Source: a virus. From it: DNA of 29,461 nucleotides. Below are positions 5,679 through 24,199 of this stretch, in pieces. The position numbers were made by a program, and so were the translations under genes. Below the pieces are notes generated by a model, which was given only the letters and a program-made list of their open reading frames with translations, searched no databases and was not told the origin of the DNA. Location: positions 1 through 29,461 of the IMG/VR virus record IMGVR_UViG_3300030419_002472; one strand, given 5' to 3'. Every line of letters begins with the position of its first letter. Within the stretch, counting starts at the first letter, position 1.

Positions 5679-5682
5679 TAAT

Positions 5683-7032
5683 ATGGAAATTAATAATGCA
5701 CAAAAATCAGGCCCATCTAAGATTACAAAGGCAGATATAACTTCTAATTTTAAATTAGATCAACAGGAAGGGCCTAATAAAGGTAAACCATTAAACGCAA
5801 GTTTAGTTAATGGAATACTTCGTATGACTTACTACGAAAGTGTCTTACAAGATTCTATTAAAGCTAATATTGTTTATGGTGATGTTGGTAATGCTGTTGA
5901 GGGTAAGTCAGCAATAGAAGGTCTTCCTATTGTAGGAACAGAAGATTTTAGGTTAGAGTTTGAAGATAATAGTGAGAATAAAATTAAGGTGGATATGAAT
6001 GTTAACACAGTGACTCCTGTATATGAAGACTCACAGAAGAATGTAGTTAGTATGGAATTAGTATCTGAAGAATTTCTTCTCAATGAAATGGGTGAAACAA
6101 GATTGCGTTCTAGATTTTACGGAAAAGTATCTGAGCATATTAAACAAATATTAGAGAAGAATCTAAAGACAGAAAAGGAATTGCATATTGAAGATTCTCT
6201 TAATGAATATAATTTTATTGGTAATGGTCGTAAACCTTATTATATGATGAACCTTCTTTCTAAACAAGGTATCCCTGATGGTTATCCTAGTAGAAGTGCT
6301 GGATTTCTTTTCTTTGAAACTTCTGAAGGTTTTCATTTCAAATCTCTAGAAGGTTTGTTCAAACAGAAACAAAAAAAATCATATATTTTTAATAATTCTA
6401 CTGATATACAAGGAACTCCTGCTGGTTATGATGGTAAAATATTAAAATATCAATCAAATGCAACTCTTAATGTTCAATCAAAGATGAATATGGGTGCTTA
6501 TAAAACTAAAATTGTTTTGTTTGATGCTTATAACTGCAAGTATATGACAGAAACTCATAGTGCTTATGGTGAAGCAGATGCTATAGAATCAGTAGTAGGT
6601 CAGGGTCTTCCTAAATTTAATACTAAATTTGATAGTGAAAATAAGAATGAATTTACTAGAACTACACTATACATGGTAGATAGTGGAAGTTTACCTGGTG
6701 CTAAAAGCACTGAGGATCAAATAAAGGCAAACACGGCAGATAATTTTAAGGCCATCTCAACATTAAATCAATCTATTCGTAGATACAATCAACTTTTTGG
6801 TGGTATGATGGAGATAACTATTGCTGGAGATTTTAGTTTACACGCAGGAGATGTAATATTTGTTGACATCTTCTCCGTTCAAGCAGAGAAAGATGATACA
6901 GTGAATAGGGAAAGTGGTGGTCTATATATTATAGCTGACTTATGCCACTTTATTAATGCTGATGGAACCTATACTAAGTTAAACTTAGCAAGAGATTCCT
7001 TCGGTAGAAAAGGTAATCATAGCACGAGGTAA
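5683..7032 (+). CDS. 27: Baseplate hub protein, gp27-like
   Basis: The 449-residue protein has the β-rich layout of myovirus hub proteins of the gp27/Mu gp44 type. An N-terminal MTYYESVLQDSIKANIVYGD segment (about 49-68) is followed by a LEFEDN...IKVDMNVNTV strand pair, a central domain with SAGFLFFETSEGFHFKSLEGLF (about 206-227), and a C-terminal β domain ending in GGLYIIADLCHFIN. It lies between tape-measure-like genes and the gp5-like spike, the expected place for the hub ring that receives the gp5 spike. A GGAGGT ribosome site lies about 10 bases before ATG 5683. The hub call is well supported by pattern and order; identity with T4 gp27 by sequence is weak. Confidence 0.7.
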   Translation: MEINNAQKSGPSKITKADITSNFKLDQQEGPNKGKPLNASLVNGILRMTYYESVLQDSIKANIVYGDVGNAVEGKSAIEGLPIVGTEDFRLEFEDNSENKIKVDMNVNTVTPVYEDSQKNVVSMELVSEEFLLNEMGETRLRSRFYGKVSEHIKQILEKNLKTEKELHIEDSLNEYNFIGNGRKPYYMMNLLSKQGIPDGYPSRSAGFLFFETSEGFHFKSLEGLFKQKQKKSYIFNNSTDIQGTPAGYDGKILKYQSNATLNVQSKMNMGAYKTKIVLFDAYNCKYMTETHSAYGEADAIESVVGQGLPKFNTKFDSENKNEFTRTTLYMVDSGSLPGAKSTEDQIKANTADNFKAISTLNQSIRRYNQLFGGMMEITIAGDFSLHAGDVIFVDIFSVQAEKDDTVNRESGGLYIIADLCHFINADGTYTKLNLARDSFGRKGNHSTR

Positions 7033-10793: not shown

Positions 10794-11350
10794 TGTCTGA
10801 GAAAAAGAATTTTTGGAACCAAGTATGGAGTGCCATGAATGGTGCTATTACTTTTGGTAAACTAAGTCCAAAAGGTGATGTTACTTCAAGTGTTGCCATA
10901 GAAGCAAGAGATGGTAGACATTTTATATGTCTTGATGAAGATGGTGAACGCACAGGTTATACTTTAATGAGTGCACCTGGTGCAACTTTTATTGAGACGG
11001 GAGATGATTTAACCAAAGAACAACAAGCAGTCATGATTCTAGCAAAGAATGGTGACATAACATTAAAGGCATCAAATGGTAAGATTAAATTAGAGGCACT
11101 TGATATTGAACTCGTTGCTAATGGTAATGCTCCACATGGTATACTTTGGGCAAAAGCAGAAGAGGCCTTGAAACTTGACTCAAAAAATGTTACAGTAGAT
11201 GGAAAGCAATCTTGTAAAATGATGACAACAGGTTTGATGGCAGTAGAGGGAAAGCTTGGTATGCAGATGATATCACCTCTTATTGAGGGAGTTTCTTCTG
11301 CTCTGGCCAAAACTGAATTACCCAAACCCGCAGAAATAAACAAGGAGTAA
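10793..11350 (+). CDS. Virion protein with needle-like β repeats, possible spike tip component
   Basis: The 185-residue protein overlaps the previous gene by one base (TAATG) and has a strong GGAGGAGG ribosome site. Its central part (about 83-120) shows short-period β repeats, NGDITLKASNGKIKLEALDI, of the kind that form β-helix needles in gp5 and VgrG C-termini. An N-terminal WNQVWSAMNGAITFG segment and a GRHFICLDEDGERTGYTLMSAPG segment precede it. The gp5-like gene upstream lacks an obvious needle, so this protein may supply the equivalent on a separate chain. That is inference from repeat pattern and gene order. It is followed after one base by the next gene. Confidence 0.5.
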   Translation: MSEKKNFWNQVWSAMNGAITFGKLSPKGDVTSSVAIEARDGRHFICLDEDGERTGYTLMSAPGATFIETGDDLTKEQQAVMILAKNGDITLKASNGKIKLEALDIELVANGNAPHGILWAKAEEALKLDSKNVTVDGKQSCKMMTTGLMAVEGKLGMQMISPLIEGVSSALAKTELPKPAEINKE

Positions 11351-11351
11351 C

Positions 11352-12176
11352 ATGTCATTTTCATTAGACGAAATATTTTGTTATACAGGGCAACTTATTG
11401 TTGCTGCGAAGAAAAAAGTTCCTAAAGCATTAGGAGTAGGAAAAGCTAAAGTAGAACATACTGCATACATTGAAGGTAACACTCAGATAGGAAAGGTGGA
11501 TGCCTTTTCCAATCCTACTGCAACATTGATGGTTGGTAGAGAAGATGCAATAGGAACAAATCTTGCAATAAACACGAAGGGTAATCAAAAAATAGAGGGA
11601 GATGGTGGAACCACATACTCTTTAGAAGTAACAGGCGGTAAGGTTCACTTTACTGATGATTTAATATGTGATGCGATTGGCCCTACCAGTCTTGCTGCTA
11701 GATTTGGTGTGGCAGATAAAAAACCAGTAAAACCTTTTGATATTCAACACCCAACAAAGGGAGAGGGTTGGAGACTACGTTATGTTTCTCTTGAAGGCCC
11801 AGAATCTGGAGTATATTGTAGAGGTAGAGTTAAAAATCAAAAGATAATAAAATTACCAGAATATTGGAAAGATTTAGTTCACGAAGATAGTATATCTGTT
11901 CAACTACAACCAATTGGTCATCATCAAAACATTATTGTAAAGAGATGGGATAGTGAATTCATTTATTTACAAGGTCAAGGTGGAGGCCCTGTCAATTGTT
12001 TCTATCATGTTTACGCAGAGAGAAAAGATGTCAATCCTCTACTCACAGAATATGAGGGTAATAGCAGATATGATTATCCAGATCCAAACTTTAGTGAAAA
12101 ATCTGATATTCCAATAGAAGAGAGAAATTACACAGATCCAAATTATAAATTCCCAAGAAATACTTACACAGTTTGA
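11352..12176 (+). CDS. Virion structural / tail-fibre-related protein
   Basis: The start follows an AAGGAG ribosome site one base after the previous stop. The N-terminal half (about 35-110) is β-rich with short Gly-containing repeats (HTAYIEGNTQIGKVDAFSNP, GTNLAINTKGNQKIEGDGG). A conserved domain (about 130-215) starts with FDIQHPTKGEGWRLRYVSLEG and has PESGVYCRGRV and LPEYWKDLV motifs. This domain is found near the C-terminus of many fibre proteins. The acidic C-terminus (about 220-274) is rich in Tyr, Asp and Pro (YDYPDPNFSEK, NYTDPNYKFPRN). The TGA stop overlaps the -35 box of a sigma70 promoter. Specific function is unknown. Confidence 0.55.
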   Translation: MSFSLDEIFCYTGQLIVAAKKKVPKALGVGKAKVEHTAYIEGNTQIGKVDAFSNPTATLMVGREDAIGTNLAINTKGNQKIEGDGGTTYSLEVTGGKVHFTDDLICDAIGPTSLAARFGVADKKPVKPFDIQHPTKGEGWRLRYVSLEGPESGVYCRGRVKNQKIIKLPEYWKDLVHEDSISVQLQPIGHHQNIIVKRWDSEFIYLQGQGGGPVNCFYHVYAERKDVNPLLTEYEGNSRYDYPDPNFSEKSDIPIEERNYTDPNYKFPRNTYTV

Positions 12177-12201
12177 CAAACCGTATTGATTGTGCTATAA
12201 T
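12173..12201 (+). promoter_or_regulatory. Consensus sigma70 promoter with extended -10
   Basis: TTGACA (12173-12178) and TATAAT (12196-12201) are exact consensus boxes with the ideal 17-base spacer, and TGC just before the -10 gives an extended -10 as well. The predicted start of transcription is about 12208, so the mRNA for the following gene would have almost no leader. The -35 overlaps the stop codon of the preceding gene. Confidence 0.9.
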
Positions 12202-12209
12202 CATCATAT

Positions 12210-12407
12210 ATGCAACAATCACTAATGGATGATGAATACTTGACACGCTGTGTCGTTGATCCACTCAAACGTAAACTTTATCTTTATTCTAGTGAGGGTG
12301 ATGAGAAAACCGTAGACTGTGAAACCGTGGATCAGTTTATGAACTTGCTACGGTTTGTGCGTGATACAGCAAGCGATGAGGTGTTATCATACGTTAATCC
12401 TCTTTAA
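12210..12407 (+). CDS. Small conserved-type hypothetical protein in its own transcription unit
   Basis: The 65-residue protein has no recognised domain: an acidic start, a basic DPLKRKLYLYSSEGDEK stretch (about 17-33), and a helical DQFMNLLRFVRDTASDE segment. I recall similar short proteins starting MDDEYLTRC in cyanomyoviruses, but cannot check it. ATG 12210 is only about two bases from the predicted transcription start, so translation would be leaderless. In-frame ATG 12225 (MDDEYL) would leave a leader of about 17 bases without a clear ribosome site. A perfect promoter in front and a terminator behind isolate it from the late operon and suggest expression by the unmodified host polymerase, possibly early. 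Confidence 0.6.
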   Translation: MQQSLMDDEYLTRCVVDPLKRKLYLYSSEGDEKTVDCETVDQFMNLLRFVRDTASDEVLSYVNPL

Positions 12408-12434: not shown

Positions 12435-12468
12435 AAAAAGGCGGGAAAAAAATCCCGCCAATTTTTTT
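12435..12468 (+). terminator. Rho-independent terminator
   Basis: GGCGGGA (12440-12446) pairs with TCCCGCC (12453-12459) around a six-A loop. A run of A precedes the stem and seven T follow it (12462-12468). It closes the 12210-12407 unit and would also insulate the oxygenase gene downstream. Confidence 0.93.
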
Positions 12469-12490: not shown

Positions 12491-13090
12491 ATGTTATTGT
12501 CTCTTTTTCCTACTATTATCCATAGTCATAAAATAACTAATTTTGAAAATAGTCAAAAAAAGTTAATTGAGTTTATATACGATGAAAGGGAAAAAGATGA
12601 TATTGGTGTAAAAGCATCTAATAGTGGTGGATGGCATTCTAAGAGAAATTACCATGAGAAGCAAGATAACATTTTGTATCACATAGTAAAATCGGCAGTA
12701 AAAACACATTTTTCAGATAATGATGTTTTTAAGGAAAACCTTCAAATAGAAATTAGTGCTTTATGGGCAAATATAAATGGAAAGGGTGATTATAATGTTT
12801 CGCATATTCACCCAGACTCAGATATATCGGGTGTTTTGTGGATTCAGATCCCAGAAAATTCTGGTGTTATAGAATTTACTTCTCCTCACATGTATAATCA
12901 GTTTAGAGAGAGACAAATTTATAAAAAGAAAATAATAGATAATGCTGGAATTCATTCGGCTTGGTATTTAATACCCACTGAGGGAAATGTTATATTCTTC
13001 CCTTCTTCTCTTTTTCATGAGGTTGATACTAATAATTCGGAAAAAGATAGAATATCCGTTTCCTTTAATTTAAATATTATAAATACCTAA
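12491..13090 (+). CDS. 2OG-Fe(II) oxygenase superfamily protein (1 of 6), TIGR02466-like
   Basis: The 199-residue protein follows the putative 2-oxoglutarate/Fe(II) dioxygenase pattern of the TIGR02466 group. His105-Ile-His107-Pro-Asp109 (SHIHPDS) lies at the start of the jellyroll, with SGVLWIQIP after it, and FHEV (His176) and Arg187 (DRISVSFNL) near the end. These enzymes normally use 2-oxoglutarate and O2 to hydroxylate a substrate. The metal triad here is either His105/His107 or His107/Asp109 plus His176; I cannot decide. The gene sits just after the terminator and ends 18 bases before a tail-fibre gene. The ATG at 12491 has no clear ribosome site. The superfamily is well supported; the substrate is unknown. 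Confidence 0.75.
   Translation: MLLSLFPTIIHSHKITNFENSQKKLIEFIYDEREKDDIGVKASNSGGWHSKRNYHEKQDNILYHIVKSAVKTHFSDNDVFKENLQIEISALWANINGKGDYNVSHIHPDSDISGVLWIQIPENSGVIEFTSPHMYNQFRERQIYKKKIIDNAGIHSAWYLIPTEGNVIFFPSSLFHEVDTNNSEKDRISVSFNLNIINT
13078..13085 (+). promoter_or_regulatory. T4-type late promoter motif TATAAATA
   Basis: An exact TATAAATA lies 23 bases before ATG 13109, a spacing typical for a late-gene leader. It overlaps the end of the oxygenase gene. Confidence 0.65.
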
Positions 13091-13108
13091 AAAGTATAGC
13101 GAGTAAAA

Positions 13109-14803
13109 ATGGCTGTTCGCATAGATGGAAATAATGATCTGATAAACGCTGCAGATGGTACGCTCACGGTAGAGGGTATATCTGTTAATATAACTGGTAT
13201 CTCTACTGCCAGTGGCGGTTATAAGGTTGGAACTGCTTATACAGTATTCCCTAATGGAAACGTTGCAACTGCTGGTATCGTAACCGCAACTTCGGGATCA
13301 TTTACGAATGGTGTAGATGCAAGTAGCAGCACTGTAACAGCAAATAAAGTAACTTTATCTGATACAATAGAACATAGTGGTGATTCAAATACAAAGATAA
13401 GATTTCCAAGTGCTGATACTATTTCATTTGAAACTGCAGGTAGTGAAGCACTTCGCATCAATTCTGATGGTGATATTAATGTATCAACAGCCGCAACCAT
13501 CAAGGCAAATGGAAACGCTACTTTCTCTGGTATTGTAACTGCTGCATCATTCTCTGGAGATGGGTCAAGTTTATCTGGTATAGATGCTACTACTATTAAA
13601 GATAGTGGTGGTAACGTAGTGGTTCAAGGTACTATTGGTGGTGCTGTTGTAACTGGAGTCATGACTGCTAATGTTTCTGGTGTTTACTTAGGAACTCATG
13701 CAGTGGGAGTTGGAACTACAACAACAACGGGTAGAGATGCAGGTATTGGAACTCCCGTAGGATCATTAGTTTTTAATCGCACTGCTAATGCTGTTCAAGT
13801 TTTTAAAGGCAATAAATGGAGTGATATTACTGACGGTCAGTTTACTGCAACTGGTGGAACTAAGAGTACATCTGGTGGAAAAATATACCATACGATGACA
13901 GGATCCACACCGTTTGTTGTTTCTCGTGGTACTGGAAATATAGAACTTATGGTTATTGGTGGTGGTGGATCTGGTGGTGGTGCTGAAGGAGCGATTACTG
14001 GTACTAATGGCGGTGGCGGTGGTGGCGGTGCTGGTGCGGTCATCTATAAGGCTACATATCCTGTTACTACTGGAACATATAGTGTTAGTATTGGTGCTGG
14101 TGGTGCTGCAGTGTCTACACGAGTTCAAGGTAATGATGGAGGAGACACTACTTTTGGTTCACTTACTGCTGGAGGCGGTGGTGGCGGTGGAGTAGCGTCT
14201 GAATCACCAAATGTTGGTGATAATGCTGCTGGAAATGCTGGTACGGGTGGTGCATCTTCTGGTGGTGCGGGTGGTGGCCCTAATAATGCTCAAGCACCTG
14301 ATCCCCCTCAATCTTGGCCAGGAAGTGGTGATTCCCCAGATAATGGATGGGGTGGAAGAGGTGGAAAAACTAATTCTCATCCAAATACTGGTGGTGCAGG
14401 TGGAGGAGGTGCTAGATATGATGGAATGAATTGTGTTACTAATAATCTTGGCACTGCAGATGGTGCACCAGGTGGTCAGGGTGTGACTCTCTCTACTTCA
14501 GGTAGCCCAGTTGGTTATGCAGGTGGTGGTGGAGGAGCAGGTGGTGCTCAAGAAGCTCCAGGTGGTCAAGGTGGGCATAATAATCCAGGTGCAGGAAATG
14601 CTCCATATCCAGATACTAACGCATTTGGAGCAGCTAAAGGTGCAATGATCGCAAGTGGAGTTGTAACACCTGCTACTGCTGTTACTGCAAACACTGGTGC
14701 TGGTGGAGGTGGTGGTGCTGAATATCCTGGTGGCCCTTCTCCTAATACCTGTGGTGCTTCTGCTGGAGCAAGTGGAGTTGTAATAATCAACTATCCAGAG
14801 TAA
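13109..14803 (+). CDS. Tail fibre / glycine-rich adhesin
   Basis: The 564-residue protein has two parts. Residues 1-270 carry fibre repeats of the ITGIST, NVATAGIVTATS, SEALRINSDGDI and NGNATFSGIVTAASF types, then a GSLVFNRTANAVQVFKGNKWSD module. From about 280 the sequence is built of poly-glycine stretches (GGGGSGGG, GGGGGGGAGA, GGRGGK, GGGGAGG) alternating with short β segments, ending in GASGVVIINYPE. This is the layout of glycine-rich tail tip domains as in T-even gp38-type adhesins, where loops between poly-glycine runs bind the receptor. The role in host binding is inferred. The gene lies between an oxygenase gene and fibre-associated genes, with a late-promoter motif in front. Confidence 0.7.
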   Translation: MAVRIDGNNDLINAADGTLTVEGISVNITGISTASGGYKVGTAYTVFPNGNVATAGIVTATSGSFTNGVDASSSTVTANKVTLSDTIEHSGDSNTKIRFPSADTISFETAGSEALRINSDGDINVSTAATIKANGNATFSGIVTAASFSGDGSSLSGIDATTIKDSGGNVVVQGTIGGAVVTGVMTANVSGVYLGTHAVGVGTTTTTGRDAGIGTPVGSLVFNRTANAVQVFKGNKWSDITDGQFTATGGTKSTSGGKIYHTMTGSTPFVVSRGTGNIELMVIGGGGSGGGAEGAITGTNGGGGGGGAGAVIYKATYPVTTGTYSVSIGAGGAAVSTRVQGNDGGDTTFGSLTAGGGGGGGVASESPNVGDNAAGNAGTGGASSGGAGGGPNNAQAPDPPQSWPGSGDSPDNGWGGRGGKTNSHPNTGGAGGGGARYDGMNCVTNNLGTADGAPGGQGVTLSTSGSPVGYAGGGGGAGGAQEAPGGQGGHNNPGAGNAPYPDTNAFGAAKGAMIASGVVTPATAVTANTGAGGGGGAEYPGGPSPNTCGASAGASGVVIINYPE

Positions 14804-14821
14804 TTAATAGAGGTTAAAAAC

Positions 14822-15265
14822 ATGGCACATTTTGCAAAAATAGGTGTTGATAACATTGTTCTCAATGTAGTGGCATTACGCAATATTAATTGTGTAGATG
14901 AGGATGGTGTTGAAAAAGAATCAATTGGAAAAGAATACTTAGAACAAAATACTGGTCACAGTGCATGGGTGCAGTGTTCTGCTAATACCCAAGATGGTGT
15001 TCATAAAGAAGGAAGAACTCCTTTGAGGGGAACTTTTCCTTCTAAAGGATGGGTGTATGATTCTACTAATGATATCTTTTATAATCCAAATGCCAAACCA
15101 TATGATTCATGGGTTTTAGATACAACCACTTCTCGATGGGAACCACCCACTGCTAGACCCACTGAAACTGATGCAGAGAGAGCTGCAGGTAAATGTTATA
15201 AATGGAATGAAACTAATAAAGCATGGGAACTGAAATCAGGAGTTGGTATTTCGACAGTAACATAA
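14822..15265 (+). CDS. Small fibre-associated protein, Trp-rich
   Basis: The 147-residue protein starts MAHFAKIGVDNIVLNVVAL, a pattern typical of conserved marine phage hypothetical proteins next to fibre genes. A cluster of aromatic repeats follows: GWVYDSTNDIFYNP, DSWVLDTTTSRWEPP and CYKWNETNKAWEL. The repeats suggest short β hairpins. It has an AGAGG ribosome site 18 bases after the adhesin gene. A tail-fibre attachment, capping or assembly role is possible but not shown. Confidence 0.5.
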   Translation: MAHFAKIGVDNIVLNVVALRNINCVDEDGVEKESIGKEYLEQNTGHSAWVQCSANTQDGVHKEGRTPLRGTFPSKGWVYDSTNDIFYNPNAKPYDSWVLDTTTSRWEPPTARPTETDAERAAGKCYKWNETNKAWELKSGVGISTVT

Positions 15266-15268
15266 ATA
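15261..15268 (+). promoter_or_regulatory. Late promoter motif CATAAATA
   Basis: The motif overlaps the stop codon of the preceding gene and lies 20 bases before ATG 15289. It could serve the small-protein gene and the oxygenase run behind it. Confidence 0.5.
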
Positions 15269-15288
15269 TAGTCACTTGTTAAAATAGT

Positions 15289-15654
15289 ATGACAACTCGT
15301 AAATTTCATGATATTGAGTATCCAATTCCAGGATTAAATACTGCAATGAATGTATTAAGGCCAGGTGCTAATTTTACATTAGGTGGTGGTAAATGGGTCG
15401 AGTGGGAGCATGAATCTCCACCGCCAACTTGGGATGAATTAGATGCAGAACTTAATAGGCAAAAACCAATTTGGGAATATTATGAGTATGAAAGATTGAG
15501 AGAAAAAGCTTTCCCTCGTGTGACAGATCAATTAGATATGTTGTATCATGACATTAAAAGTGGTAATATTGAAAATGGATTATTTGTTCAAGCAATTGAT
15601 AAAGTAAAGAATAAATTTCCAAAACCAGAAGGATCACCTCCAAAATATCCATAA
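15289..15654 (+). CDS. Small tail-fibre-assembly-like protein
   Basis: The 121-residue protein ends in a segment recalling tail-fibre assembly and XkdW-type proteins: EYYEYERLREKAFPRVTDQLDMLYHDIKSG, then FVQAIDKVKNKFPKP. The N-terminal half is proline- and glycine-rich (IEYPIPGLNTAMNVLRPGANF). It lies between fibre genes and the oxygenases, two bases before the next start. Chaperoning fibre folding is an inference from this family look. Confidence 0.5.
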   Translation: MTTRKFHDIEYPIPGLNTAMNVLRPGANFTLGGGKWVEWEHESPPPTWDELDAELNRQKPIWEYYEYERLREKAFPRVTDQLDMLYHDIKSGNIENGLFVQAIDKVKNKFPKPEGSPPKYP

Positions 15655-15656
15655 TA

Positions 15657-16160
15657 ATGCAAATATATGATGATTTCCTTCCTCAAGATGAGTGTCAATT
15701 GTTGAAGGAACAAATTTGTTTTAATAAAAATTTTCCATTTTATCTTCATAATTACGTTGCTCTTTGTGATGAAGAGACATCATTATGGAATTGGTATGGA
15801 ACACATGTTTTTTACGAAGATGGTAATATTAATAGTCAATATTTTGAATTTGTGAATGAGATTTTTATTCCTAAATTTATTGAGATGGGAATTTTTAAAT
15901 CTCTTATAAGAATAAAAGCTAATTTTTATTCCAATACAGACTCTATGAAGGAGCACGGATCTCATCGGGATTATCATTATTCTCATAATGCAGCAGTTTA
16001 CTCTTTAAATACTTGTGATGGGTTTACACGCTTAGAAAGTGGTGATATAATTAATAGTGTAGAGAATAGATTGGTTATTTTTGATGGAGATCAAATTCAT
16101 AATTCTAGCACTACCACTGATCAACCTGTAAGATTTAATCTTAATTTTAATTTTAATTGA
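15657..16160 (+). CDS. 2OG-Fe(II) oxygenase superfamily protein (2 of 6)
   Basis: The 167-residue protein opens with IYDDFLP, common at the start of 2OG oxygenases. It shows a classical HxD pair, His103-Arg-Asp105 (GSHRDYH), a distal His148 (DQIHNS), and Arg159 (PVRFNLNFNFN) for 2-oxoglutarate. Length is near the minimum for a full jellyroll. It starts two bases after the previous stop and is followed immediately by another oxygenase. Substrate is unknown. Confidence 0.75.
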   Translation: MQIYDDFLPQDECQLLKEQICFNKNFPFYLHNYVALCDEETSLWNWYGTHVFYEDGNINSQYFEFVNEIFIPKFIEMGIFKSLIRIKANFYSNTDSMKEHGSHRDYHYSHNAAVYSLNTCDGFTRLESGDIINSVENRLVIFDGDQIHNSSTTTDQPVRFNLNFNFN

Positions 16161-16165
16161 TAATT

Positions 16166-16792
16166 ATGGCATATCAAAGCGTTTGGTATTTTACAGATCT
16201 CCCTGCGGATGTAGTTAATATTATAGAAAGAGACGTATCTGAGAAGTTTGATATGAATATGGGTGAATCAAGATTGGATGGAAATACTGTAAATAAAGAT
16301 AAAAGAAATTCATATAATGCATGGATTCCTACTAGTCATTGGGTGGGAGGATTTCTTTGGCATTATGTGCAAAGGGCTAATAGAGAGAACTTCTTGTATG
16401 ATTTGCGGTGTATTGATGCTGAGAACATGCAATATACCCGTTATGCTGAAGGGCAACACTATACTTGGCATAATGATTCTGGATTGGCTGGTCATTACAA
16501 ACCTATATCAAATGGTGATCATAAAGAAGCTGATAAAAAACATCAAGATTTTATAAATGAAAACACAGAATTGGTAAGGAAACTATCTTTTACTTTACAA
16601 TTATCTGATCCTGATGATTATGAAGGTGGAAATGTTCAGTTACTTGATGAGACAGGAAAAAGTTATATTGCACCTAGACAACGTGGTTGTATAATTTTAT
16701 TTGATTCTCGAACTCAACATAGAGTATTGAAGGTGACTAAAGGAACTCGTAAATCTATTGTAGGTTGGGTCGTTGGGCCACGCTGGAAGTAA
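16166..16792 (+). CDS. PKHD-type 2OG-Fe(II) oxygenase (3 of 6)
   Basis: The 208-residue protein fits the prolyl 4-hydroxylase-like/PKHD group. It has YAEGQHYTWHNDS with His102-Asn-Asp104, an LSFTLQLSDPDDYEGGNVQL strand pair (about 140-159), distal His185 (RTQHRVLKVTKG), and Arg195 in the GTRKSIVGWVVGP ending. ATG 16166 is chosen over an upstream in-frame TTG at 16157 because the TTG overlaps the previous gene's stop. This is the clearest of the six for an active HxD...H...R site. A prolyl hydroxylase-type activity is the usual reading for this group, but the substrate is unknown. Confidence 0.85.
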   Translation: MAYQSVWYFTDLPADVVNIIERDVSEKFDMNMGESRLDGNTVNKDKRNSYNAWIPTSHWVGGFLWHYVQRANRENFLYDLRCIDAENMQYTRYAEGQHYTWHNDSGLAGHYKPISNGDHKEADKKHQDFINENTELVRKLSFTLQLSDPDDYEGGNVQLLDETGKSYIAPRQRGCIILFDSRTQHRVLKVTKGTRKSIVGWVVGPRWK

Positions 16793-16797
16793 ATATT

Positions 16798-17511
16798 ATG
16801 ACAGAACTTGAAATTGTTAAAAATGAGTATGACAATGCGGGAACTTCTTGGACTCGTAATGAACAATTTGATAAAAATGGTTATCTATTAGTTAACAATT
16901 TATGGGATCCGAAAGAACTTTACTCTCCATGTGGTGTTGAGAGGGGAAGATATACTTGGTGGGGGAGAAAGATGGATCAATTTAATGTAACGAGTGAAGT
17001 TGAAGAACAGGTAGAAGGTTCTTTTGCACGTTACTTTTATCCACAGTATATACATGTTCATAATGGTATTAGATTAATATTAGAAAAAATTATTGGTCGT
17101 AAACTTTATAATACCTATTATTATGATCGTTTTTATTTTCCTGGCCAAAGGTTAGACAAACATACTGATCGTGATGCTTGTGAAATATCAGTGACAGTTC
17201 ATGTTAGTACTAACATTGAAGAACAATGGCCTATCTGGATAAAAACACCTGATGTTTTTAAAGATGACAAAAAAACAGAACTTTTAACTAAAGGAGAGAA
17301 AAATGGTATTATCTTAGAGCCTGGAGCTGGAGTAATATATAAGGGTTGTGAAAGACCTCATTGGAGAGAAGAATTGCCAGGTCTTTTAGATATGTCATTA
17401 AATCTTTATCATAAAGGTGAGACACAACAACTTTATTACCATCAAATTTTTTTCCATTATGTTTTGCAGGATGGAATAAGAGCTCATTGTGCATGGGATA
17501 GGAGAGTATAA
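16798..17511 (+). CDS. 2OG-Fe(II) oxygenase superfamily protein (4 of 6)
   Basis: The 237-residue protein begins with FDKNGYLLVNNL, has PGQRLDKHTDRDACEIS with His122-Thr-Asp124, the strand PIWIKTPD, and EPGAGVIYKGCERPHWRE with distal His188. The ending YYHQIFFHYVLQDGIRAHCA has a pattern common in marine phage oxygenases. ATG 16798 has a GGAAG ribosome site at about 16784. The longer frame from ATG 16765 would overlap the previous gene by 28 bases and is rejected. Substrate is unknown. Confidence 0.8.
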   Translation: MTELEIVKNEYDNAGTSWTRNEQFDKNGYLLVNNLWDPKELYSPCGVERGRYTWWGRKMDQFNVTSEVEEQVEGSFARYFYPQYIHVHNGIRLILEKIIGRKLYNTYYYDRFYFPGQRLDKHTDRDACEISVTVHVSTNIEEQWPIWIKTPDVFKDDKKTELLTKGEKNGIILEPGAGVIYKGCERPHWREELPGLLDMSLNLYHKGETQQLYYHQIFFHYVLQDGIRAHCAWDRRV

Positions 17512-17513
17512 TT

Positions 17514-18176
17514 ATGAGTGAATTATCACAATTACAAAAAGTAAATTGTGGGGAAATTAGAGTTGTTATTCCTGAAAATCTTGGGTGGTTAGAATATAGA
17601 TTGAAAGAGGAAGAAATGAATTATGTCAAACAGTGTATTGATAATAGAAAAGGTGATCATAGAAAAATACTTGCTGGTAACATAAAAGACAGTAATACTT
17701 TATATGATAAAGATAATTGGTTCTTTAACAATACGATTCAGAAATTAATTCATATCTATGGAACAGAATTCAGTAATTTGGGAGAGGATATTCCTCTCAA
17801 TCAATTTCATCCATATTATATGGATAATTGGTGGGTGAATTATCAATATAAACATGAATTTAATCCTTTACATACCCATACAGGAGTTTATAGTTTTGTA
17901 ATTTGGATTAAAATTCCTACTGATTTTGAAAAACAGAATGAAGATAATGTAAGTAATATGCCATCTAAATCAGCTTTTAAATTTATTCATACGGATAATT
18001 TAGGGCAATTTAGGCATTATAATTATGAATTAACTCCTGCAGCCGAGGGAATAATGTTATTTTTTCCAAGTAAATTAAATCACATAGTATACCCTTTTTA
18101 TGAATGTGATGAGGAAAGGATAAGTATTTCTGGAAATATTGGTGTGGATACCATCAGAACTAAAGATAAAAAATGA
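17514..18176 (+). CDS. 2OG-Fe(II) oxygenase-like protein with HxH motif (5 of 6)
   Basis: The 220-residue protein has the layout NWWVNYQYKHEFNPLHTHTG (103-123), then a SFVIWIKIP strand, FFPSKLNHIVYPF (His190) and ERISISGNI (Arg202). His120-Thr-His122 replaces the usual HxD. It starts two bases after the previous gene with an AGGAG ribosome site and overlaps the next by four bases (ATGA). Similar proteins are annotated as 2OG oxygenases; with an HxH the metal ligation or activity may differ. Confidence 0.65.
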   Translation: MSELSQLQKVNCGEIRVVIPENLGWLEYRLKEEEMNYVKQCIDNRKGDHRKILAGNIKDSNTLYDKDNWFFNNTIQKLIHIYGTEFSNLGEDIPLNQFHPYYMDNWWVNYQYKHEFNPLHTHTGVYSFVIWIKIPTDFEKQNEDNVSNMPSKSAFKFIHTDNLGQFRHYNYELTPAAEGIMLFFPSKLNHIVYPFYECDEERISISGNIGVDTIRTKDKK

Positions 18177-18715
18177 AATGCCCTTTATTTGACTTCCCTT
18201 CTTATCGATATGAGGTTGATGATTGGGAATTTAAAAAGAAAGAATTATTAAAACAAATTGACAAGCAAGAGTTCGTAAGAACTAAACTTCAATGTTTTGA
18301 AACTGATAGACAGACAAATGATAGAAGTTATATTCATGATTTGGAAAAAATTCTAAGACCCACTCTTATTGAATTTTGCGAGGAAGAACAAGTTAATTGT
18401 GTATTGAAGGATGCTTGGTGTGTTAAATATAAGAAAGGAGACCATCAAACCATTCATAATCATAGAAGTTGTGGATACTCTGGAATTTTGTATTTGCAAT
18501 ATGATCCCGAAGTTCATACACCCACATGTTTTATGGCTCCTTGGCAAAATCCTAAAACAGATCAAACCTCTCTTTCATATCCCCCACATATTAAAGAAGG
18601 AGTAGTTTTTATTTCCCCCTCTTCTACTCATCATTTTGTTGAACCGAATATGAGTGATAAACAAAGAACTATTATTGCTTTTGATTTAGTGCCTATCATG
18701 AATTATGATAAATAA
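18173..18715 (+). CDS. 2OG-Fe(II) oxygenase-like protein with HxH motif (6 of 6)
   Basis: The 180-residue protein overlaps the previous gene (ATGA), implying coupling. It has GDHQTIHNHRSCGYSGILYLQYD with His95-Asn-His97, then FISPSSTHHFVEPN (His153/His154) and Arg165 (KQRTIIAFDL). The SGILYLQ strand after the HxH motif matches the TIGR02466-type pattern in the 12491 gene, though overall identity is low. An HxH instead of HxD makes catalytic activity uncertain. Confidence 0.65.
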   Translation: MKCPLFDFPSYRYEVDDWEFKKKELLKQIDKQEFVRTKLQCFETDRQTNDRSYIHDLEKILRPTLIEFCEEEQVNCVLKDAWCVKYKKGDHQTIHNHRSCGYSGILYLQYDPEVHTPTCFMAPWQNPKTDQTSLSYPPHIKEGVVFISPSSTHHFVEPNMSDKQRTIIAFDLVPIMNYDK

Positions 18716-18770: not shown

Positions 18771-18778
18771 TATAAATA
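18771..18778 (+). promoter_or_regulatory. T4-type late promoter motif TATAAATA
   Basis: An exact TATAAATA lies 36 bases before ATG 18815 in the roughly 100-base gap after the oxygenase run. The rest of the gap shows only a GGA ribosome site before the start. Confidence 0.7.
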
Positions 18779-18814: not shown

Positions 18815-21800
18815 ATGGGTCTTTCCAGATTAGAGAATTTTTTAAAGAACGTTCGCGGGAACATCCTGTATGTAAGTCCTAATGACTTGGATGCGACTGA
18901 TAGTATCGAAAATAAAGGTAATTCTCTCACTCGCCCTTTCAAGACAATTCAGAGAGCTTTAATCGAAGCAGCAAGATTCTCATATCAGTCAGGGTTAAAC
19001 AACGATAGATTTGCACAAACAACAATTCTTCTATATCCTGGTGATCATGTCATAGACAATAGGCCTGGTTATATTCCTGATGGATCAGGTAATTTTAGAA
19101 CTAGAAATGGATCAACCACTTCTGATTTTTCTGCATGGGATTTAACTACAAACTATGAGTTAGCAAACGTAAATAATGCTCTATTCAAGATGAATAGTAT
19201 TCATGGTGGTGTGATAATACCCCGTGGAACTTCACTTGTAGGTTTAGATTTAAGAAAGACAAAGATAAGACCAAAATTCGTTCCCAACCCATTAAATGAT
19301 ACAGTTCAAAATTCAGCTATATTTCGTGTAACTGGTGCTAGTTATTTCTGGCAATTCTCTATATTTGATGCAGACCCAAATGGTGTTGTGTATCTTGACT
19401 ATACTGAAAATACATATAAACCAAACTTTTCACACCATAAGTTGACTGCATTTGAGTATGCTGATGGTGTCAATAAAGTAAGAATTAATGATACATATCA
19501 AACTTACGGTTCTAACACTAGAACTGATCTTGACATGTATTATGAAAAGGTAGGTTTAGTGTATGGTGTTACATCTGGTCGTCAGATTGAACCAGACTAT
19601 CCATCTACTGGATTAGATATTCAAGCAAAAATTGACGAGTTCCGTATTACTGGGCCTAAGACTGGATCTGTTGGTATCAGCAGTATCAAGGCTGGTGATG
19701 GAACAACATCATCAAACGTTGTTACAGTCACAACAAGTTCTGCACTTTCTGGTGTTGATGTAGATACTGCGATTGTAATTGATGGTATCACTGCAACTGG
19801 ATATGATGGTCAACATGTTGTGACTGATAAGATCAGCAATACAGTATTCAAATATAGTGTTCAAAATTCACCTTCTGATGCACTTCCATCAGTATCTGGA
19901 TCTACAGCATCACTTACAATTGATACAGTAACCTCTGCATCTCCTTATATCTTTAACATATCACTTCGTTCTGTATTTGGAATGAATGGTTTACTTGCAG
20001 ATGGTAACAAAGCATCTGGATTTGCTTCTATGATGGTTGCCCAGTTCACAGGTATTGGATTACAGAAGGATAATAATGCATTCTTAAAGTATAACTCTAC
20101 CACAGGTGCATATGATGATGGCACAGTATCTGGTAATGAGAGTCTAAACACAGATTCAAGAGCAGTATATAAACCAACATACTCAGGTTCACATATTAAA
20201 GCAATCAACGGTGCAACAATTCAGGCTGCATCTGTATTTGCAATTGGTTATGCAGAGCACTTCCTATCAGGAACTGGTAGTGAAATGTCAATTACCAACT
20301 CCAACTCAAACTTTGGAGCAAAGGCATTAGTTGCAGAGGGATTCAAGAAGAACGCATTCTCACAAGATGATGTAGGATATATCACACACATAGTTCCACC
20401 AAAAGAATTTTCAACTTTAGATAAAACCGTTGAGTTTCAGACTTTAGACATTGCTACAACTGTAGGTGTCACAACAACGACTGAACGCTTATATCTAAAA
20501 GATCAAACAAACCCATCAGTCAAACCAGAGAATGTTTTAGATGGATATAGAATCGGTGCAGGAACATCTGATAGATTACATGTTCTAATTCCTATTTCAG
20601 CAGGTGTTACATCAGAATTCAGCTCTAGAATTGTGATGCCTAACTCACAGTCAAGTGGTGAGAAGTCATTTAATGTAAATAGAAGTTCTGCTGGTATCAA
20701 TAGTATTACAAGTAATCAGATAGAATTAACCGCAGCACATACCTTTGAAAATGGTGAATCTATTAGAATTTTAAGTGATGATGGTTCTTTACCTGATGGT
20801 TTAGATCCAAATGAGGTATATTATGCAATTACGAGTGGTATATCAACAAATATTGGTTTAAAAGTTGCTAAAACTTTATCAGATGCAGAAAATACGACTG
20901 CTTTAACAATCAATAACCGTGGTGGATCATTAAAGGTCGTAAGTAGAGTATCTGATAAGAATTCTGGTGATATAGGCCATCCAATACAGTATGATGATGT
21001 TGTTAAGAACCAATGGTATATTAAAGTTGGTATAGACACAACAGATTCTGGTGCAAAGAACAAAGATACTATTTACAATTACTTCTTAAATCAAGGAACA
21101 TCAGGATTAGGAAATGCTTCTCCTCGTTCATATATTAAGAGAAAATCTGATGAAAGAAAACAGGATGATACAACATATCGTTTAAGATATGTAATTCCAG
21201 CAGCAACTGGAGTTGCAGTCGCAAGACCACCAAAAGTTGGTTATGTTCTTCAAGAATCAAACACTTCTATTGGATCTACAACTGCTGAGATTCAGACATA
21301 CTTTGGATCTGAGAACTTTACAAACGTAGCACAACAGAGAAACTTTAGTTTCATTGCAAATGCAAACTATTCATCTTCAAGTGCAAATGTCATCACAGAG
21401 ATGCCACACAATTTATCTGTGGGATCTTTAGTTGAAGTTATAAATGCAAAGAGTAGTGTCAATACAACAGGTGCTGGTAACTCTGGATTCAACGGAACAT
21501 TCAGAGTCACAGGTATCAGTAGTGCAAGAGAGTTTACTGTTGGAATGTCAACAGATCCTGGTACATTTACTGTAATTGATACGATAACCAGAGACACTAC
21601 ACTTCCACATTTCAAGAGAAAGGATTATAAGACAACATATTACATACAAGACACAGAAGAAGTTCAAGAGTATATCAGTGGAACACAAGATGGTATCTAC
21701 TATCTTACCGTATTAAATTCATCTGTATCTCCTACAGTCACACCATTTACTGGAGAGAAGTTTACTCAACCAATTAAGTATCTTTATCCTCAAGTTAATC

Positions 21801-24199
21801 GTGATAATCCTGTTGCAGACCCAGATGCAGCCACATCACATGCACTTTCAAGAACTATTGGTGAGACTACCATCAATGATGTAAGAGATAGTCTTACTAA
21901 AGAAACAGTCGATGCATTTGTTCGTGACAATAATATTGGTATAGGAATCACACAGATCATTACAGATGCTGGTATTAAGACAGACCATACTAAGATACCT
22001 GTAGATCATTTCCAATATCCACTATCTAAAAAGCATACAATTTTCACAGATGTTGATCATGGATTCAACGGAATACAAAAAGTTAGTATCGCAAGTAGTG
22101 GTGCTGGATATGGAACTGGTGGTGCTAGTGACGAAATATATTACAATGCACAGTTATTAAATTCTGAAGAACTTGGAGTTCCTACATTTGGTAGTGATGG
22201 AGTAGAAAATGCAGTTGGTGTTGGAACTACAACTGGTAAACATGCGACTGCAAAAGTCACTGTAGATAAAAATAATGGTGGTATCACTGCGATTACCATC
22301 ATGAATCCTGGTAGTGCTTTTGGTATCGGTAACACAATGTATGTTGCTGGTATTGGAACGGCTGCTGCTAATATTGGTGGAGGTCACAGTGCTGCGAAAA
22401 TCACAGTCACGAAGATTGATAGTAATATTGGAGATATAATTAGAATTACTGGTGTATCATCAGAAACTTATTCACAATACAACGATCTATATCGTATTAG
22501 TGATGTTCATGTTGGTGCTGCACGAAGTTTCACTGTTATTGGTAACTCTGCTGTAACTGGTGTTACGACTGCTGGAATAGGATCAGTATTGACTGCAAAT
22601 GCTGTGGTCACTCTAACTGGAAAACCAATCGGAATCAGTACATACACATATGATACTGCTACAGGTATAGCAACTGTTGGAACATCAACCTATCATGGAT
22701 TAGGTGTTAACTCTAAGGTGACTGTTGCAATATCTACAGTCGGTGTTAGAACTGATGGTGATTCCACAATTCCTTTAGCAAGAGAATTGGGTAACTTCAC
22801 TGGATCATTTACTGTCGTTAAGGATAGTGGAGATCAGAAGTTTGAGATAAATCTAGGTATTGCTGCTACAACCACAACGACATTATCAGTTGGTTCATCA
22901 ATGTTTGTAATGCCAGAAGGCATCTCATCAAATGATGGTACACCTACAGTTGATGATGAGAGTTTAAGTGGTAGAATGGTATCCATTTATGATGGAACTC
23001 AGACATATCTTGATACTGCAATGACTAAGACAACTACAGAGATGAGACCTGTAGGCCTTGGTCTTACCAACCAGATTGGTGTGAAGATAGGTGATTACTA
23101 TCAGATTGACGATGAGATTGTTAGAATCAAGAACAATCCACATCCGCATTCAGCTGCTAGTGATCCATCCAACCCATTGACTGTGTATCGTGCAGTTCTT
23201 GGAACTAGAGCAGCAGCACACGTTGTTAAATCTGTGGTTCGCAAGATTAAACCGATACCAGTTGAATTAAGAAGACAATCTATTAACAGAGCAACGGGTC
23301 ATACATTCGAGTATCTTGGATTTGGGCCTGGAAACTACTCAACATCTCTACCAGAAAGACAAGATCGTAACTTATCAGAGGCAGAGGAACTTATAGGTCA
23401 ATCTCTTAGAAAGAATGGTGGTGTAAACTACTTCTCTGGAACTAATGATAAAGGTATTTTATTTGCTGGTAACAAGAAACTAGATCCTATTGCTGGTAAG
23501 GAGGAGATACATAGTACTCCAATCAGAACAGTCACAGGTGAAGATATCTCTGTCAAGAAGGGTATCAATATAGTTAAGGCAACAGAAGGTGACTTCTCAT
23601 CATCTATCAATGTAACTGGTGGTGATGAAGGTAAGATTATTTCTGAGTTCAAAGGCCCTGTGGTCTTCAGTAATAAGGTAACATCTTCTTCTACTAAGGG
23701 TCTTGAAGCATCATCTCTATTCTTACAGGGAGATGCAACAGTTTCTAGAAAATACACTGTTGGAATCGCAACTCCAACTTCTGCAGGAACTGCTGGTGAT
23801 ATTACATTCAGTAATAACCCACAAGGTGGTAAGTATCTTGGTTGGGTCTACACAACTGATAATGCGTGGAAGAGATTTGGTAGCATAAGCACCGAAGCAA
23901 ACTATGATTATCATACAGTTGATAAACTACACATCGGAACAGGTGTAACTATTACATCAGATGGTGCATACACATCAAGTGGTAATGTATCAATCGCTGG
24001 TTCAATCGGTGTAGGAACTGCGGCTCCAAGAGCAACACTTGATCTTTCACAAGGTGCAATTGGAATCAACACATTTATGATACTACCTAAAGTAAGCAGC
24101 GTTGTTGGATTAGGAACAACTGCTGGTGCAATGATGTTCAATACTGCTACAAGTAAGTTCCAAGGATTTACTGGTGCAGCTTGGGTTGATCTACACTAA
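18815..24199 (+). CDS. Very large virion structural protein, fibre or baseplate, β-helix N-terminus
   Basis: This 1794-residue protein is the largest in the window. The N-terminus MGLSRLENFLKNVRGNILYVSPNDLDATDS leads into a pectin-lyase-like β-helix start (RPFKTIQRALIEAARFSYQSG, TTILLYPGDHVIDN, IIPRGTSLVGLDLRKTKIRP). The middle has many β modules with Gly-Val-Ser-Thr turns, including an SSGAGYGTGGASDEIYYNA unit (about 1095). A PVELRRQSINRATGHTFEYLGFGPGNYSTSLPERQ segment follows near 1490. The C-terminus has fibre-type SIAGSIGVGTAAP and GAMMFNTATSKFQGFTGAAWVDLH. Such proteins are conserved in T4-like cyanophages and annotated only as virion structural. It probably forms a fibre or baseplate-to-fibre component; the exact role is not known. 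Confidence 0.65.
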   Translation: MGLSRLENFLKNVRGNILYVSPNDLDATDSIENKGNSLTRPFKTIQRALIEAARFSYQSGLNNDRFAQTTILLYPGDHVIDNRPGYIPDGSGNFRTRNGSTTSDFSAWDLTTNYELANVNNALFKMNSIHGGVIIPRGTSLVGLDLRKTKIRPKFVPNPLNDTVQNSAIFRVTGASYFWQFSIFDADPNGVVYLDYTENTYKPNFSHHKLTAFEYADGVNKVRINDTYQTYGSNTRTDLDMYYEKVGLVYGVTSGRQIEPDYPSTGLDIQAKIDEFRITGPKTGSVGISSIKAGDGTTSSNVVTVTTSSALSGVDVDTAIVIDGITATGYDGQHVVTDKISNTVFKYSVQNSPSDALPSVSGSTASLTIDTVTSASPYIFNISLRSVFGMNGLLADGNKASGFASMMVAQFTGIGLQKDNNAFLKYNSTTGAYDDGTVSGNESLNTDSRAVYKPTYSGSHIKAINGATIQAASVFAIGYAEHFLSGTGSEMSITNSNSNFGAKALVAEGFKKNAFSQDDVGYITHIVPPKEFSTLDKTVEFQTLDIATTVGVTTTTERLYLKDQTNPSVKPENVLDGYRIGAGTSDRLHVLIPISAGVTSEFSSRIVMPNSQSSGEKSFNVNRSSAGINSITSNQIELTAAHTFENGESIRILSDDGSLPDGLDPNEVYYAITSGISTNIGLKVAKTLSDAENTTALTINNRGGSLKVVSRVSDKNSGDIGHPIQYDDVVKNQWYIKVGIDTTDSGAKNKDTIYNYFLNQGTSGLGNASPRSYIKRKSDERKQDDTTYRLRYVIPAATGVAVARPPKVGYVLQESNTSIGSTTAEIQTYFGSENFTNVAQQRNFSFIANANYSSSSANVITEMPHNLSVGSLVEVINAKSSVNTTGAGNSGFNGTFRVTGISSAREFTVGMSTDPGTFTVIDTITRDTTLPHFKRKDYKTTYYIQDTEEVQEYISGTQDGIYYLTVLNSSVSPTVTPFTGEKFTQPIKYLYPQVNRDNPVADPDAATSHALSRTIGETTINDVRDSLTKETVDAFVRDNNIGIGITQIITDAGIKTDHTKIPVDHFQYPLSKKHTIFTDVDHGFNGIQKVSIASSGAGYGTGGASDEIYYNAQLLNSEELGVPTFGSDGVENAVGVGTTTGKHATAKVTVDKNNGGITAITIMNPGSAFGIGNTMYVAGIGTAAANIGGGHSAAKITVTKIDSNIGDIIRITGVSSETYSQYNDLYRISDVHVGAARSFTVIGNSAVTGVTTAGIGSVLTANAVVTLTGKPIGISTYTYDTATGIATVGTSTYHGLGVNSKVTVAISTVGVRTDGDSTIPLARELGNFTGSFTVVKDSGDQKFEINLGIAATTTTTLSVGSSMFVMPEGISSNDGTPTVDDESLSGRMVSIYDGTQTYLDTAMTKTTTEMRPVGLGLTNQIGVKIGDYYQIDDEIVRIKNNPHPHSAASDPSNPLTVYRAVLGTRAAAHVVKSVVRKIKPIPVELRRQSINRATGHTFEYLGFGPGNYSTSLPERQDRNLSEAEELIGQSLRKNGGVNYFSGTNDKGILFAGNKKLDPIAGKEEIHSTPIRTVTGEDISVKKGINIVKATEGDFSSSINVTGGDEGKIISEFKGPVVFSNKVTSSSTKGLEASSLFLQGDATVSRKYTVGIATPTSAGTAGDITFSNNPQGGKYLGWVYTTDNAWKRFGSISTEANYDYHTVDKLHIGTGVTITSDGAYTSSGNVSIAGSIGVGTAAPRATLDLSQGAIGINTFMILPKVSSVVGLGTTAGAMMFNTATSKFQGFTGAAWVDLH

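Follow-up and report, generated by a model that had tools for sequence, protein, structure and literature searches.

Few genes recur as often in marine T4-like phages as those for Fe(II)- and 2-oxoglutarate (2OG)-dependent oxygenases, and for these phages we found no demonstrated function in the literature. In T4-like cyanophages they have been described repeatedly (Sullivan 2010; SSM2_035-038 in S-SM2; 24 annotated genes in S-SCSM1, PMC9602691), where they were interpreted as auxiliary metabolic or repair genes. Here we describe six such genes, clustered with the gene of a glycine-rich tail adhesin, in a 29.5 kb linear virus record from IMG/VR (IMGVR_UViG_3300030419_002472, positions 1 to 29,461; this whole stretch is called the window below). 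It belongs to the same virus and enzyme families as the cyanophage examples, and relatives of its oxygenases 3-6 stand in the same order in S-SM2. Oxygenase arrays in cyanophages are already known; what is new is their position beside glycine-rich adhesins. Neither this link nor the identity of two of the six genes as oxygenases was found in the earlier cyanophage work, and in the open-access literature we found no phage report of 2OG enzymes acting on fibres, the adhesin link included.

The closest system outside the phages is that of PBCV-1, which also encodes a 2OG hydroxylase (vCPH; structures 5c5t and 5c5u are among the structural matches given below) and for which 4-hydroxyproline in viral proteins has been reported together with the viral prolyl 4-hydroxylase (Eriksson 1999, as quoted in PMC9301287). 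However, PBCV-1 is a Chlorella virus with a collagen-type enzyme, whereas the window has six divergent enzymes and an adhesin that is glycine-rich but not collagen-like. Bacterial PKHD-type hydroxylases and PiuC are a further point of comparison. Oxygenase 3 resembles both the PKHD equivalog models and PiuC chains, at E of about 2e-5, but it reaches only 58 bits in the best PKHD model, where the cut-off is 143, and so falls outside the equivalog family.

Judged by its sequence, the window comes from a T4-like cyanophage (Kyanoviridae). Among annotated viruses it is closest to Synechococcus and Prochlorococcus myophages, which are Kyanoviridae where the taxonomy was read. Six intact open reading frames on the plus strand carry the hallmarks of 2OG-Fe(II) oxygenases: one at 12491-13090 (oxygenase 1, P0001) and five head to tail at 15657-16160, 16166-16792, 16798-17511, 17514-18176 and 18173-18715 (oxygenases 2 to 6, P0002 to P0006). 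Within the array the gaps measure 5, 5 and 2 bases, the last two genes overlap by 4 bases, and 2 bases precede the array; the coordinates and layout given in the original prediction were borne out. Between oxygenase 1 and the array lies the adhesin (P0007, 13109-14803, plus strand), the proposed substrate. It matches PF21722 (Gly_rich_2) with 35.9 bits, against a cut-off of 24.3 (E 1e-8), and its richest 80 residues are 40% glycine.

To place this arrangement in a wider context we used 14 cyanophage isolate genomes, which had been picked for matches to P0002 or P0004 and not for gene position. Genes were called simply, oxygenases were found with iterated profiles, and the background was obtained by circular shifts. 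Fibre-like proteins were classed by length and composition and glycine-rich proteins by composition; curated domains agree where checked. The genomes are mutually related, and the shift tests treat them without correction for kinship.

In general, the tie between oxygenases and fibres is weak. Within 5 kb of a fibre there are 59 of the 145 oxygenases, where 42.5 are expected (49 of 2000 shifts), and at 2 kb the excess is not significant (31 against 23.2; 224 of 2000 shifts). A run of at least four oxygenases lies near a fibre in 7/7 genomes that have such a run; these seven are not independent, because they occupy similar places in related genomes. Fibres in general were accordingly rejected as the partner of the oxygenases.

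For glycine-rich adhesins of the PF21722/PF12810 type the tie is clear and specific. An oxygenase is found within 2 kb of 12 of the 25 glycine-rich proteins (5.4 expected; 29 of 1000 shifts), and 9 of the 13 genomes with a glycine-rich adhesin have such a pair, compared with 3.5 expected (1 of 1000 shifts). Other fibres are depleted, with an oxygenase within 2 kb at 16/121 against 30.9 expected. The same is seen when only non-fibre genes of 130-300 residues are compared: within 2 kb of glycine-rich proteins 16/42 (38%) are oxygenases, near other fibres 15/101 (15%), and overall 16% (Fisher p 0.0035 and 0.0003), although independence among these genes is incomplete and 5 of the 16 adhesin-near oxygenases come from Bellamy. 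The proposal of a battery at the fibre locus is thus supported for glycine-rich adhesins, and only weakly for fibres as a class. Likewise, the co-variation with fibre type that had been proposed, here checked as co-location, is seen with the glycine-rich adhesins and not with other fibres.

A PF21722 or PF12810 protein scores above the cut-off in 13 of 20 genomes, and by reading of the gene maps 10 of these 13 have an oxygenase within 2 kb; syn9, S-SCSM1 and P-SSM2 are the three that do not. Laboratory cyanophages with an array next to a glycine-rich adhesin include S-MbCM6, S-CAM8, Bellamy and S-SM1. The layout also occurs in phages of SAR11. Mosig carries a run of six oxygenase-type genes about 0.5 kb from a PF21722 protein, and HTVC008M a run of five at about 1.1 kb; a cyanobacterial host is thus no requirement for the layout. 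Its recurrence in viruses of two bacterial phyla suggests that these phages may chemically modify their own host-binding protein.

Several of the neighbourhoods have features of their own. In P-SSM2 (NC_006883.2, 18953-26794) four glycine-rich fibre-like proteins have a collagen-like composition, with 12-16% proline and 9-26 Pro-Gly pairs; a PKHD-type oxygenase gene (27677) follows 0.9 kb after their end. In 25 adhesins near to and far from oxygenases, compared by eye, Pro or Pro-Gly content showed no consistent difference. The oxygenase-adjacent adhesins of P-SSM4 and Syn19 (about 37060 and 40772) match the glycine-rich domain of the animal receptor kinases ALK/LTK (PF12810). In Mosig genes annotated as heme oxygenase and phycocyanobilin:ferredoxin oxidoreductase directly follow the oxygenase array (10828-12064 of the stretch analysed), which is odd for a SAR11 host, not known for phycobilins. 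Some runs have further tailoring enzymes beside them: a Nol-like carbamoyltransferase in S-CAM8 and S-SSM5, a tryptophan halogenase in syn9 and HTVC008M.

In metagenomic loci the link can be followed for the gene pair at 16166-17511, i.e. oxygenases 3 and 4. Among 64 distinct IMG/VR loci with a relative of P0004, a P0003-type gene is found within six genes in all 64 and directly upstream in 55. Where 2 kb of flank is available on both sides (n=31), a fibre-like gene lies within 2 kb in 30 loci and a glycine-rich protein in 27; after grouping at 80% identity the latter holds for 13 of 14 groups. The background is far lower: a fibre lies within 2 kb of 16% of genes and a glycine-rich protein within that distance of 3.7%, and even near any fibre only 20.7% of genes have a glycine-rich protein at this distance. 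Relatives of P0002 show much lower values than the P0004 loci (fibre-like gene 7/20, glycine-rich protein 6/20). Further, distant members of phrog_2954, the family of P0004, are not at adhesins in S-PM2, S-RIM32 and Syn30, so the link is limited to the P0004 subfamily.

All six genes proved to be of the 2OG-oxygenase type, as had been proposed from the letters of the sequence. Four have a Pfam match above the cut-off of 27 bits: PF13759 in oxygenases 1, 5 and 6 (12491, 17514 and 18173; 85, 42.5 and 46.5 bits) and PF13640 in oxygenase 3 (16166; 60.4 bits, PKHD/PiuC-like). Oxygenase 1 also belongs to TIGR02466 and, like oxygenases 5 and 6, to phrog_81; it carries an HxH...H...R motif and has the solved relatives 3bvc and 2rg4. 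The Pfam scan gave no match above cut-off for the genes at 15657 and 16798, which were assigned by AlphaFold2 structure comparison and an invariant HxD...H motif. In BLASTP among the six only the PF13759 members find each other (P0001 with P0005 and P0006; 23-31% identity, E 1e-6 to 1e-8), and no meaningful match was found outside them. The divergence claimed earlier is therefore real, and it excludes recent duplication.

In each of the four oxygenase groups the alignments show almost no variation at the catalytic residues, which indicates maintained enzymes; such conserved active sites argue for active ones. Among 142 proteins of the PF13759 type the histidines of HxH are conserved in 99% and 97%, the distal histidine in 98%, and the basic residue (R/K) is kept, but the motif has no conserved Asp. 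The iron site of this family may consist of three histidines in place of the usual two histidines and one carboxylate. A reading of the motif as that of an oxygenase-type halogenase was dropped, as nothing but the missing Asp stood behind it.

The remaining two genes belong to families with other names: P0002 to phrog_274, named 'DNA endonuclease V', and P0004 to phrog_2954, named 'ferrochelatase'. For both we aligned IMG/VR relatives, predicted structures with AlphaFold2 and compared these by Foldseek and by a second-look structure comparison. Prediction was needed because the profiles of P0002 and P0004 gave no relevant match among the sequences of solved structures. The P0002 model is of high confidence (predicted local distance difference test, pLDDT, 95.8; predicted template modelling score, pTM, 0.91). 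Its best second-look match is the 2OG-Fe(II) oxygenase 6n1f (Z 16.5, root-mean-square deviation, rmsd, 2.2 over 155 residues), and other matches include the PKHD oxygenase 3dkq (Z 15.7, rmsd 2.3 over 144), PiuC (15.6) and PHD2 (about 15). For P0004 (pLDDT 86.6, pTM 0.86) the matches are 2OG enzymes throughout, from Z 14.3 (5erl, rmsd 3.3 over 171) down to about 13; they include 4j25 (Z 14.0, rmsd 2.9 over 160) and, at about 13, PHD2 and the viral collagen prolyl hydroxylase 5c5t. Both models show the double-stranded beta-helix, and almost all matches are 2OG oxygenases; the top ones include protein prolyl hydroxylases and PKHD enzymes. Structure prediction for these two proteins thus gave a 2OG-oxygenase fold in each case.

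The putative iron ligands H103/D105/H148 (oxygenase 2) and H122/D124/H188 (oxygenase 4) are invariant in the alignments and conserved at 96-98% in larger sets. As the basic residue for the 2OG carboxylate, the family of oxygenase 2 has R159, 100% conserved and at the usual spacing; in the family of oxygenase 4 the candidate is R190, 98% conserved at an unusual spacing. Support for the current names was not found. At E 0.1 P0002 has no Pfam or NCBIfam match, and P0004 has none to ferrochelatase. Among solved structures, at E 1, a 43-sequence profile of the P0002 family finds no T4 endonuclease V chain and a 32-sequence profile of the P0004 family no ferrochelatase chain. The 50 Foldseek and 50 second-look matches listed for P0004 contain no ferrochelatase, and those listed for P0002 no T4 endonuclease V, which by itself excludes nothing. 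By profile-profile comparison the phrog_274-type and phrog_2954-type families show no similarity to each other. Since predicted structure and the conserved HxD...H both point to 2OG oxygenases, the labels 'DNA endonuclease V' and 'ferrochelatase' are very probably wrong; by fold and active-site residues both families are oxygenases of predicted activity.

The labels are widespread. By tblastn the P0002 family is found in 226 phage records and the P0004 family in 147, and many of the matches listed bear one of the two names. According to a 2010 review, none of the cyanophage genomes known at the time has a denV homologue (PMC2984593), but a survey also from 2010 listed denV in 13 cyanophages (PMC3037559); an oxygenase structure for phrog_274 offers an explanation for this conflict. 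In pelagiphages a 'ferrochelatase' beside a 2OG oxygenase has been discussed as partner or seasonal genes (PMC9599517, PMC11561400). This is the same kind of gene pair as in the window, phrog_2954 beside an oxygenase, but it was read there as an iron-inserting enzyme and an oxygenase, whereas our structure prediction gives two oxygenases. S-RIM2 SWTG_00018, labelled tail fiber protein, is a member of the phrog_274 family. Further, syn9 gp52 (5513-6124 of the stretch analysed), labelled minor coat protein, matches DUF6445 (PF20043, E 2e-13) and weakly a 2OG oxygenase family, so that its family is possibly a third misnamed group of oxygenases.

The order of genes on the plus strand runs from tail and baseplate functions through the oxygenase/adhesin region to tail fibres at 18815, 24246 and 27214, the first of which is a large one (18815-24199, phrog_529). 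Between the adhesin and the array are two small genes: a fibre-locus protein (P0008, 14822-15265, phrog_7759), whose cluster recurs in 27 of the 64 relatives' loci, and P0009 (15289-15654, phrog_9114/1787), the first gene of the apparent transcription unit of the array. For cyanomyoviruses a late promoter has been reported, NATAAATA (PMC2984593), of which ATAAATA is the core. The late promoters proposed in the original prediction are partly supported, by position and not by frequency. ATAAATA occurs 9 times in the window, not above the 13.5 expected by chance, so only positions are informative, and 5 of the 8 plus-strand copies stand 21-37 nucleotides before a start codon (13109, 15289, 18815, 24246 and 27214). 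These include a copy at 13079-13085, 24 nucleotides upstream of the adhesin, one at 15262-15268, 21 nucleotides upstream of P0009 and the nearest ahead of the five-gene array, and one at 18772-18778, after the array and before the next tail-fibre gene. From these positions, late expression of the array by read-through is plausible.

No ATAAATA stands directly before oxygenase 1, which follows a strong terminator-like hairpin (12440-12459, plus strand; a 7-pair stem with 6 G-C pairs and a T tail). Upstream of this hairpin, a 12-of-12 match to a sigma-70 promoter with TG before the second hexamer (12173-12201) precedes a 65-residue gene (12210-12407, phrog_662). Promoter, gene and terminator appear to form an early mini-unit inside the late tail module.

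Our preferred reading, to which we give a probability of roughly 0.4, is that the array hydroxylates the phage's own glycine-rich adhesin, or its fibres, post-translationally. The six Fe(II)/2OG-dependent hydroxylases would be made, probably late, from the tail-fibre transcription units. With 2OG and O2 bound at its iron site, each would hydroxylate particular side chains of the glycine-rich domain, for instance those of Pro, Asn, Asp or Lys, before or during tail assembly, and perhaps neighbouring fibre proteins as well. The modification could then tune the stability of the adhesin or its binding to the receptor. It is location that argues for the adhesin as substrate; the fold alone gives none. 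The wider version, in which marine T4-like phages of cyanobacteria and SAR11 have a dedicated, variable hydroxylase set that writes a modification pattern on the adhesin, is more doubtful.

Several observations weigh against adhesin hydroxylation. The majority of cyanophage oxygenases are not close to an adhesin. In S-SM2 the four-gene array is the same, with the nearest glycine-rich protein over 5 kb distant, and in S-SCSM1 no glycine-rich protein is near. The adhesins beside the pair of oxygenases 3 and 4 differ widely (34 proteins fall into 28 clusters), and any substrate they share would have to be a property of the glycine-rich fold. Across genomes 0 of 148 oxygenases have a late-promoter motif of their own directly upstream. 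A motif-bearing, late-type unit contains 8 of the 19 adhesin-near oxygenases; for other oxygenases the share is 18%, and for fibre-like genes 89%. Other T4-like phages also have functional glycine-rich adhesins and are not known to need such enzymes for them. No oxygenase is named as a virion protein in the published proteomes of S-SZBM1 and S-SCSM1 virions, but this does not decide the matter, because enzymes acting in the cell need not be packaged.

The same location would also suit enzymes that modify the host and not the virion. The target would then be a host protein, or a surface glycan or lipid receptor, with adhesin and receptor-modifying genes exchanged together. The best Foldseek match of both the P0002 and the P0004 model is a prolyl-4-hydroxylase of P. 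putida, also solved with EF-Tu, which it hydroxylates: an example of action on a host protein. Further, the carbamoyltransferases and halogenases beside some arrays could tailor surface molecules. However, the shared fold shows no substrate, and a host-protein role gives no reason why glycine-rich adhesins should be preferred over other fibres. Lytic phages also gain less than prophages from receptor modification, and we regard action on the host as unlikely.

That the ends of adhesin clusters are merely hotspots where accessory genes pile up, the oxygenases being general auxiliary genes for host metabolism, the 2OG level or iron, appears rather improbable. It is true that oxygenases are abundant throughout the genomes (each of 18 has 1-14 phrog_81 matches, besides the 24 annotated oxygenases of S-SCSM1), that other accessory genes occupy the same places, and that cyanophages have been proposed to use 2OG enzymes to act on the 2OG level and NtcA-driven transcription (PMC3037559). 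But among size-matched genes the excess of oxygenases is found near glycine-rich adhesins and not near other fibres, and merely consuming 2OG would not need six dissimilar enzymes. As SAR11 phages have the same arrays, a role in cyanobacterial NtcA regulation cannot be the general reason. Finally, AlkB-type repair or modification of DNA or RNA has been proposed in the literature, for the syn9 oxygenases beside uvsX and uvsY (PMC2984593, PMC3037559), and AlkB-family structures are among the Foldseek matches. For the window it is very improbable: the array is among tail genes and not repair genes, 'endonuclease V', the one member named as a repair gene, is an oxygenase by predicted structure, and the second look is led by PKHD, PHD and P4H structures.

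Two consequences follow for marine T4-like phages. The labels of phrog_274 and phrog_2954 are used in published ecology, and published statements on viral ferrochelatases and on cyanophage denV rest partly on names that are very probably wrong. Moreover, the link of the oxygenases to one class of host-recognition proteins makes the question of their function testable on a single protein in existing isolates, by a mass shift. If adhesin hydroxylation is true, the pattern on the adhesin would change its stability or its recognition of receptors in ways not written in the adhesin gene.

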